IMG/VR virus record: IMGVR_UViG_3300000117_006037
Location: 1-24,435 of that record
Origin: a virus
Length of the DNA stretch: 24,435 nt
Reading direction: 5' to 3' (one strand)
The notes below the pieces were generated by a model, which ran no database searches, had not been told where the DNA came from, and was given only the letters and a program-made list of their open reading frames with translations. Made by a program: the position numbers and the translations under genes. How positions within the stretch are numbered: position 1 is the stretch's first letter; each line of letters opens with the position of its first letter. Shown here one piece after another: positions 6,386 through 22,049 of this stretch.

Positions 6386-6558
6386 TGATGAAAATGAATA
6401 CAGCAATGAAACAACTAAAAAAAGATGCAGATTTTTATGGTTGGAGTTTAGAAAAATTTATACGATATATGGAAACCCGTGAAGTGCTTTGGGAGTTTAA
6501 TCAGGCAACCGTAAAAGCTTTTAACAGATTACAAGAGTTCAATAGGAGACACCAATAA
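6385..6558 (+). CDS. Small hypothetical protein (57 aa)
   Basis: Unrecognised helical protein, MMKMNTAMKQLKKDADF..., rich in Lys, Phe, Trp and Arg, with a basic C-terminus. Start candidates are ATG at 6385 or 6388; GAGGAGG at 6371-6377 serves either. Both ends overlap neighbouring genes by one base (TAATG at each junction), a pattern expected of a true gene in a coupled operon rather than a chance frame. Confidence 0.62.
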   Translation: MMKMNTAMKQLKKDADFYGWSLEKFIRYMETREVLWEFNQATVKAFNRLQEFNRRHQ

Positions 6559-20712: not shown

Positions 20713-20725
20713 TTACAGATTTTCC

Positions 20726-20754
20726 TTTACTATTCTGAGAAATTGTGATAGAAT
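20726..20754 (+). promoter_or_regulatory. Early promoter P6, before the non-coding region
   Basis: TTTACT at 20726-20731, a 17-base spacer, TAGAAT at 20749-20754 and an extended TG at 20746-20747. It is followed by AGGAG at 20764-20768 and a two-codon frame ATG GTA TGA (20777-20785) instead of a gene. Confidence 0.88.
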
Positions 20755-20760
20755 AGATGT

Positions 20761-21030
20761 AAGAGGAGATTCTAAAATGGTATGACGATATTCTAAAGAC
20801 GTAAAAAGTGTGAGTAGGTTCGCCCCAATGAATTGAAAACTATGTCTAAACAAGGTGATTGGGGGACTCTGATTAAAAATCCTGGATCAGAGTTAGGCAG
20901 TGAGACGACCACGTTAAAAGTCAGGTAATAATTGTCGAGTGAGTATAAACACTGTTAAACCTGTAAACGACAATAAAATTAAGACGCAGGTGGGAATGAT
21001 AATCGCCCTCAGTAGAAAGGATTATCTTTT
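20761..21030 (+). ncRNA. Candidate structured non-coding RNA
   Basis: About 270 bases with stops in all three + frames, directly behind an early promoter, and less A+T-rich than true intergenic spacers here. Perfect stems: CCCCAAT 20823-20829 with ATTGGGG 20858-20864; ACTCTGAT 20866-20873 with ATCAGAGT 20886-20893 (12-base loop); ATTGTCG 20931-20937 with CGACAAT 20968-20974, containing AGTG/CACT (20938-20941/20950-20953); and GATAATC 20998-21004 with GATTATC 21020-21026 followed by TTTTATT. ACCTG at 20959-20963 could pair with CAGGT at 20922-20926 or 20987-20991 as a pseudoknot. No match to tRNA, tmRNA, RNase P or 6S features that I know. Confidence 0.5.
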
Positions 21031-21036
21031 ATTATT
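20998..21036 (+). terminator. Weak terminator-like hairpin at the end of the non-coding RNA
   Basis: GATAATC (20998-21004) and GATTATC (21020-21026), a 15-base loop, followed by TTTTATTATT. The stem is only 7 bp and A+T-rich, so termination may be partial; the next gene's AGGAG begins 3 bases beyond. Confidence 0.4.
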
Positions 21037-21050
21037 ATGAGGAGTATATC

Positions 21051-21460: not shown

Positions 21461-21792
21461 CAATGCATTTATTACCATCTTATTATACTACGACTGATCT
21501 TCGTAAACGTAAAAAGAAAAATGTTTCTCAAGAAGATATCAAAACTCAAAAACTTCTTGAAAGACTTGGTTATAATAAAAATCATAATTTTCGTCCTGAT
21601 ATTCCAGACTATCGTATATCAAAGTCAGACGTTCAAACATCTGATAGAGTTGGCAATGGTTTCAAAAATATAGCAAAGCAGTACACTGGTGACGAGTTAG
21701 CAGGCATCGGTACACTCCATAAATCAAATATGGTGCCAGTTCGTAAAGACAGTAATGATGCTAAAGAAATCGCAAGGATGAGAAGAGGATGA
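21457..21792 (+). CDS. Conserved hypothetical protein (111 aa)
   Basis: A conserved-looking phage protein of unknown function. LLPSYYTTTDLRKRKKK at the start, KLLERLGYNK, DIPDYRISKSD, TSDRVGNG, YTGDELAGIGTLHKSNMVPV and DAKEIARMRR at the end look like short conserved blocks separated by polar linkers. The blocks IPDYR and LxGIxTLHKSNxVPV recur, as I recall, in proteins of many unrelated phages. No catalytic motif is visible. ATGA coupling on both sides. Confidence 0.72.
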   Translation: MTMHLLPSYYTTTDLRKRKKKNVSQEDIKTQKLLERLGYNKNHNFRPDIPDYRISKSDVQTSDRVGNGFKNIAKQYTGDELAGIGTLHKSNMVPVRKDSNDAKEIARMRRG

Positions 21793-22049
21793 AGAATCCA
21801 GTTGCAAAATATTTAATGTGTTCATATGCATACTATATTGATGATGAACCACTTATCTCGGATGCTGAATACGATAAACTTGCTAAATCTATATTAGAAA
21901 ACTATGATACGATTGATCATCCACACAAAGTTCATATTACAAAAGATGATTTGAAAGCAGGAACATTTCTTGGTAAATACCCAACGATGATAAAAGGTGC
22001 AGTTGAAAGTTATAGAAGACAAATGAAAAAATATCGTCCTGTTGTGTAG
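21789..22049 (+). CDS. LigA N-terminal-like small protein (86 aa)
   Basis: The segment AYYIDDEPLISDAEYDKLAKSIL (residues about 14-36) resembles the first part (domain Ia, NAD-binding) of bacterial NAD-dependent DNA ligase, where YY..D.P.ISDAEYD.L...L is the hallmark. The remaining 50 residues (HKVHITKDDLKAGTFLGKYP and a basic tail) do not resemble ligase, and the adenylation domain is absent, so it is not a ligase by itself. It could bind NMN/NAD or be a co-opted domain; this is inference. ATGA-coupled upstream; an early promoter follows the stop. Confidence 0.65.
   Translation: MKNPVAKYLMCSYAYYIDDEPLISDAEYDKLAKSILENYDTIDHPHKVHITKDDLKAGTFLGKYPTMIKGAVESYRRQMKKYRPVV

Follow-up and report, generated by a model that had tools for sequence, protein, structure and literature searches.

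ToxI type III antitoxin RNAs and their phage mimics are small phage-borne pseudoknot RNAs that occur in series, and phage lambda bar is an example of minigenes. A two-codon minigene, mg2 of axe-txe, acts as a regulator in a bacterial toxin-antitoxin operon (PMC8708949), and the AUGUAA start-stop upstream frame of Arabidopsis NIP5;1 acts as a regulator in plants (PMC11915504). In phage T4, the late-class RNAs rnaC and rnaD (species 1 and 2) have been referred to as 'RNAs of yet unknown functions' (PMC9697503).

The DNA analysed here, called the window, is a stretch of 24,435 nucleotides (positions 1 to 24,435 of IMG/VR virus record IMGVR_UViG_3300000117_006037). It is a fragment of a marine T4-type phage with genes for PhoH, ribonucleotide reductase and iron-sulphur assembly, and with a homologue of the late-transcription coactivator. 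The nearest matches of its PhoH are cyanophage PhoH proteins, yet identity to these is below 52%. Comparison with related viral contigs indicates that an intergenic gap at 20713-21050 comprises two independent RNA modules, A (20763-20927) and then B (20929-21028), which share a single early promoter, and that each module is a pair of tandem H-type pseudoknots.

T4 rnaC and rnaD are the nearest known RNAs to these modules in setting but, judged by models R1 (for B) and R2 (for A), are not homologous to them. They are small structured RNAs that adjoin tRNA genes, and B likewise occurs beside phage tRNAs. However, neither model matched them in a search of the T4 locus (L121), and homology was rejected for this reason. 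Furthermore, rnaC and rnaD are classed as late, unlike A and B with their early-type promoters, and rnaC ends in a tRNA-like T arm which by inspection is absent from A and B. In regards to the minigenes, module A has a Shine-Dalgarno sequence (SD), an AUG, 0-2 codons and a stop, and it shares with lambda bar, axe-txe mg2 and NIP5;1 the order of an initiation site followed by AUG, 0 or 1 codon and stop. It differs from them in that its frame keeps a set distance to a pseudoknot RNA that is itself conserved, and recurs throughout a virus family upstream of unrelated genes or of no gene at all. A structured phage small RNA is a known kind; for the start-stop frame fixed relative to a pseudoknot we know of no counterpart. 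A short frame and a pseudoknot chain are also found in tmRNA, but A has no tRNA-like domain and no tag and is half the length, and ARAGORN and Rfam searches returned no tmRNA. ToxI RNAs resemble A and B as small phage pseudoknot RNAs in series but are of a different size, and ToxI-like tandem repeat units were looked for in the region and not found. Group I and II introns had no Rfam intron match, and the downstream gene 21051 starts from its own SD (21039) and its own AUG.

Searches for known relatives gave a consistent picture. Rfam 15 returned no relevant match for the window, either at the gathering score or at E<=10, and none at E<=5 for divergent relatives of A and B; overall these searches yielded only tRNAs and matches due to chance. 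Queried by BLAST against 50,697 phage records, A and B sequences of several lineages gave nothing beyond short chance matches, and our literature search found no paper on pelagiphage or other phage small RNAs with these features. A and B thus appear to be previously undescribed families that match no Rfam family or isolated phage, which agrees with the initial annotation, where the region was read as a structured RNA of the phage that is driven by a promoter and matches no known class. These are two RNA families with strong support from sequence comparison, found in neither Rfam nor isolated phages despite their presence in dozens of marine viral contigs.

The gap, its promoter and its two modules

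The main features of the gap are as follows.

20726-20754, + strand: early sigma-70-like promoter, consensus match TTTACT-17-TAGAAT
20763-20768, + strand: Shine-Dalgarno GAGGAG of the start-stop frame of A, 8 bases before the AUG
20777-20785, + strand: start-stop mini-frame AUG GUA UGA at the head of A, with a start-stop frame also in relatives
20763-20927, + strand: module A with pseudoknots d/a and b/e, from model R2 and covariation
20929-21028, + strand: module B, an RNA of ~100 bases with pseudoknots P1/P3 and P4/P5, from model R1, covariation and its precise absence from L008

At 338 bases this is the largest intergenic gap in the window, where the median intergenic gap is -1, so that the initial annotation rightly singled out some 340 bases without a gene among overlapping genes. 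The next-largest gaps (1307-1619, 2046-2265 and 6386-6557) apparently have small ORFs inside, and the 338-base gap is the sole real non-coding stretch of the window. The early promoter that had been read as leading into the gap matches the consensus, and the same form also lies directly upstream of B or A in relatives. The statement that the region is non-coding with all + frames closing holds in that the longest + strand ORF within the gap is ~33 aa at most, but it had overlooked the two-codon start-stop frame behind its SD.

Seven further early promoters, of the form TTTAC..TGATAnAAT, are present in the window (2049, 3787, 5987, 17752, 19588, 22057 and 23528), most of which are soon followed by a ribosome-binding site and a start codon. 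Separately, the match of a small ORF at 21789-22049 to DNA ligase is limited to the N-terminal NAD-binding part (PF22745), and this ORF is conserved in relatives as a gene of its own.

The division into modules is evident from an alignment of four close relatives. L006 has the entire region and L009 has the first part only, while L008, which is very close to L006 here, lacks exactly the final 100 bases, namely module B. The final part of the gap is also found alone in other phages upstream of different genes. A is therefore present without B in L008 and L009, B is present without A in most phages, and models R1 and R2 find phages in common only inside the window's own clade. Since each module occurs without the other, a reading of A and B as one RNA was dropped, and the single 270-base RNA that had been proposed gives way to two separate elements. 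The folding energy of the gap is not beyond that of shuffled sequences (z = -0.08), so the evidence for structure is covariation and not stability.

Folds and relatives of the two modules

Scans for A found 13 contigs and a looser pattern raised this to 61, of which R2 confirms 38 new-set loci besides the window. The looser pattern was written without the mini-frame, the SD and helices d and e, which means that these features were not selected for. Comparison of these sequences supports the following helices.

20797-20800 with 20844-20847, + strand: helix d, AGAC/GTCT, at least nine 4-mer pairings
20823-20829 with 20858-20864, + strand: helix a, CCCCAAT/ATTGGGG, pairing across relatives
20866-20873 with 20886-20893, + strand: helix b, complementary arms whose sequence differs among relatives
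20881-20884 with 20922-20925, + strand: helix e pseudoknot, CCTG (loop of b) with CAGG, paired in 31/41 sequences
20900-20912, + strand: helix c, GTG/CAC hairpin with loop AGACGAC

Helices a, d and e are paired in 176/176 cells in 12 sequences. For helix a alone, 266/266 cells are paired in 38 sequences, against a mean of 220 and a maximum of 236 when shuffled, a comparison that ignores kinship among sequences that are phylogenetically linked. Helix d is maintained as AGAC/GTCT, AGCC/GGCT, AGGC/GCCT, GGAC/GTCC, TCCC/GGGA, CACC/GGTG, CGCC/GGCG, TGGC/GCCA and TGCC/GGCA, helix e occurs in six different pairings among the 31 sequences that form it, and the arms of helix b differ in sequence yet are fully complementary in L009, L130, L131, L138, L160 and others. 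Helix c occurs as GUG/CAC, CUG/CAG and GAG/CUC, as seen by eye in the alignment. Another segment takes the place of the b/e half in the most divergent members, indicating that the core of A is the mini-frame plus the d/a pseudoknot. A UAUUC/GAGUA pairing proposed by RNAalifold was dropped because it is absent from L135 and L130.

Module B is recognised by model R1 with an E-value of about 1e-24 (E-values of R1 and R2 are rough). Pattern scans found it in 26 and later 58 viral contigs, giving ~40 distinct sequences. The 5' half folds as hairpin P2 within the loop of P1, with P3 joining that loop to bases 3' of P1, and in the 3' half P4 and P5 cross to form a second H-type pseudoknot.

20931-20937 with 20968-20974, + strand: P1, five conserved pairs, the outer one AU, UA, CG, GU or UG
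20939-20941 with 20950-20952, + strand: P2, GTG/CAC, ACG/CGT, GCG/CGC or GGG/CCC
20959-20963 with 20987-20991, + strand: P3 pseudoknot, ACCTG/CAGGT, 99.5% of cells paired
20992-20994 with 21006-21008, + strand: P4, GGG/CCC, 100% of cells paired
20998-21004 with 21020-21026, + strand: P5, crossing P4, 73% of cells paired

Covariation was run on 22 sequences and then on 41. Among the 41 distinct sequences 92.4% of cells are paired, compared to 78.4% with partners shuffled (0/500 shuffles reached the observed share, ignoring kinship) and at most 49.7% in slid controls, and the covariation score is 0.353 against 0.120. Two-sided changes are observed in 13 pairs with P1, P2, P3, P4 and P5 all represented, and P5 has them in all five counted pairs. 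P3 and P4 were left out of the structure used to align B, so that their support is not circular. P3 is found in relatives as GCCAG/CTGGT, GCCTG/CAGGT and, in L135, GCTTA/TAAGC (cores CCTG/CAGG and CCAG/CTGG), and P4 as GGG/CCC, AGC/GCT, AGG/CCT and GGC/GCT. The outermost pairs of P1 (20931, 20932) are not generally conserved. Long unpaired stretches of B are nearly invariant, namely GGTTAAGCC, GTAAACGAC, AAAATTAAGACGC and TCAnnAGAAAG, in part because some of their letters were in the search pattern. Gathering relatives with sequence patterns means that selection accounts for some of the invariant core, but not for the helices and the frame. One B copy (L014 2746-2800) has a P1/P2 region that is seemingly part-duplicated (AGTCGAGCGGTTACCGCGGTCAAG, then GAGCGGGAAACGCGGTTAAG).

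With compensatory changes found in relatives of both modules, all four stems of the initial annotation (20823/20858, 20866/20886, 20931/20968 and 20998/21020) are present, each backed by such changes. Its pseudoknot from ACCTG 20959 had two suggested partners; the pairing with CAGGT 20987 is borne out as P3, but CAGGT 20922 pairs instead with CCTG 20881 in helix e of A. The AGACG and GTGAG repeats are present as described, but their copies differ in structural role, and relatives do not keep them as repeats (L009 has AGCCG at the first place).

The start-stop mini-frame of module A

An AUG followed by 0-2 codons and a stop is found in 34/35 relatives of A that have enough upstream sequence, the window included, while 1000 shuffles gave a mean of 7.5 and a maximum of 16 (ignoring kinship). 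The sole exception is L146. Among the 34 there are 0 codons between AUG and stop in 7, 1 in 22 and 2 in 5, and the stop is UGA in 23, UAG in 7 and UAA in 4. The use of three stop codons and of 18 distinct mini-frames indicates that this is not a frozen motif. What is held is the position of the stop, which ends at the identical place in 23/34 and within one base (-26 to -28 from the core) in 28/34; the AUG shifts by whole codons and so stays in frame with the position-fixed stop. The mini-frame is displaced by 5-10 bases in L147, L150, L160, L164, L170 and L177. An SD-like 4-mer lies 4-17 nt 5' of the AUG in 26/34 relatives as compared to 1/34 control windows. The distance from the stop to the first pseudoknot is mostly ~10 bases; in the window, 11 bases lie between the stop and helix d.

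Genomic surroundings and possible roles

B is found in at least four different genomic settings.

Setting 1: promoter, tRNA-Leu, tRNA-Trp, B, then an iron-sulphur gene
Setting 2: hairpin module C, B, tRNA-Arg or tRNA-Gly, then a homologue of 20449
Setting 3: promoter, B, then a homologue of 22119
Setting 4: A, B, then a homologue of 21051

Whole-record searches found one strong copy of B per record in 12/12 records, including one 152.7-kb phage. A scan of a genome collection gave a single match to B, taken as chance since its flanks are unlike those of B, and apart from this match B is confined to viruses. A likewise has one strong copy per record in 10/10 records and precedes many different genes. 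In L133, L137, L145 and L156 a U-run and a new promoter come after it, and in these A resembles a transcription unit of its own.

What A and B do we infer from these surroundings and from their conserved features. The promoter type points to early expression, and both modules would be transcribed from the promoter at 20726. An element acting in cis on early genes would be expected in several copies and a trans-acting RNA in one, so the single copy favours action in trans, as do the changing neighbours and the A copies that precede a U-run and new promoter. We lean, by a modest degree, towards A and B being two unrelated early phage RNA genes in tandem that act in trans, with A engaging the ribosome at its start-stop frame. 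Both would work as RNAs and not as leaders of 21051. A ribosome would load on the AUG of A and have the stop codon in its A site within 0-2 codons. By ribosome geometry, a stop in the A site would put a pseudoknot 11 bases away at about the mRNA entrance, where the d/a pseudoknot would then lie. The RNA and the terminating or stalled ribosome would form a complex. Its effect would be either to hold ribosomes or to protect the RNA and bring it to the translation machinery early in infection. The placing of a start-stop frame against a pseudoknot gives the direct prediction of a ribosome held on the AUG.

The compact fold and long invariant unpaired stretches of B suggest that it may bind a protein, the ribosome or a tRNA-processing factor. 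B probably binds a host or phage factor, with a protein or the translation apparatus as the most likely partner. A sponge or protein-binding RNA, as put forward in the initial annotation, is possible. Many A and B copies are located in 5' untranslated regions, where they may have a cis role in 5'-end protection or as a translation set-point, and copies of B in tRNA arrays could undergo other processing. A stronger version, which we consider rather doubtful, is that A is a dedicated ribosome trap with the start-stop frame as lure and the pseudoknot as lock at the mRNA entrance, with which marine phages would capture, tag or park ribosomes of the host early in infection. If this were true, then B and the other array modules would make up a small phage RNA kit aimed at the translation machinery.

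Other readings have to be weighed against trans-acting RNA genes. That A and B are cis-acting 5' leader elements of a downstream early gene, either stabilisers or riboswitch-like, fits the order of promoter, element, ribosome-binding site and gene in the window, L069/L070, L092, L108, L116 and others, and the ribosome-binding site near the 5' end of A resembles 5'-end shielding. We nonetheless find this rather unlikely given that the downstream gene varies among lineages, that there is one copy per record despite many early promoters, and that copies lie within tRNA arrays or ahead of a new promoter. For 21051 in particular, the same gene is preceded by no B in L008 and L009 and by neither module in L021, the + strand of the leader shows no terminator-like site, and no helix extends past 21026, which by inspection leaves the start region with its SD at 21039 uncovered. 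The riboswitch-like leader for 21051 suggested initially is thus not supported, as there is neither an association with one gene class nor a terminator-like or RBS-sequestering platform. We assign a similarly low likelihood to A and B being decoy or antitoxin-like RNAs that imitate an RNA of the host and tie up one of its defence or RNA-processing proteins, as the pseudo-ToxI RNA of an escape phage reportedly does. The early promoter, modular gain and loss, tandem pseudoknots and virus-only occurrence of B would all suit such decoys, but there are no ToxI-style tandem repeats and no candidate target, and the start-stop frame is left unexplained.

A start-stop frame would be accounted for if A were an inhibitory minigene in which repeated translation of 1-3 codons frees short peptidyl-tRNAs, depleting tRNA or blocking ribosome recycling as with lambda bar, while the pseudoknots merely stabilise the RNA. 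Two-codon frames with good ribosome-binding sites are indeed seen, and regulation by minigenes is known from bacterial operons (PMC8708949). However, the codon after the AUG is variable (GUA, GGA, UAU, AUG, UUG, ACC or none), seven relatives have a stop at once after the AUG and would make no peptidyl-tRNA beyond fMet, and the fixed distance from stop to pseudoknot goes unexplained, making this less likely still than leaders or decoys. Finally, the suspicion that sequencing errors have broken a conserved protein-coding frame can draw on 20833-20928, which is open in the window and in L009. In L006, L130 and L131 that frame is interrupted early by a stop, and these stops in relatives refute the suspicion; the compensatory pair differences among relatives and the closure of every + frame also argue against coding, and we regard it as having almost no chance of being correct. 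The two findings that would have spoken against the initial annotation, missing compensatory changes or a conserved coding frame, were thus both looked for and not found.

The arrays in which these modules occur offer a second, comparative handle on small RNAs of T4-type phages beside the tRNA genes. Module C, present just 5' of B in many arrays (L016 4565-4625, L087 947-1007, L071 on the - strand and 10 further loci), is a stem of ~13 pairs with many compensatory changes and a nearly invariant pyrimidine-rich loop, TCCTGTCTCGCTCCTCTCTCAGTnGAT; its two CUCCU motifs are complementary to ribosome-binding sites, so that it resembles an anti-Shine-Dalgarno RNA. Module D, AACAAAGGAGAAnGCA..CC(A/T)G..TATAA..C(A/T)GGCTCTGC, is a small element that recurs 3' of B and of tRNAs (L014 2870, L041 4391, L071, L086, L087 and others). 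Directly 3' of B we also observed element E (AAAGTCCTgAGTAtGACTAACTCGCG; L041 4071, L072 11730, and L086 and L104 on the - strand) and element G (GGGTCCTaAGCACGACTGTAAAAGGC; L067 6417, L077 2219, and L081 on the - strand), which are perhaps related to each other. Around A, seven loci (L133, L137, L138, L145, L146, L149 and L156) have the module directly 5' of a gene whose product start resembles MAHMVETMAYAGELPWHGLG, and this gene has its own promoter in several of them. Divergent A copies in L139, L140, L150, L155, L161, L164, L174 and L176 are followed by long non-coding stretches that look like an array of more RNAs of no known kind, and several of these stretches contain an element near CATTAAGGTTGGTTGG..CAGTAAAGTTCC with GAGAGA/TCTCTC flanks.
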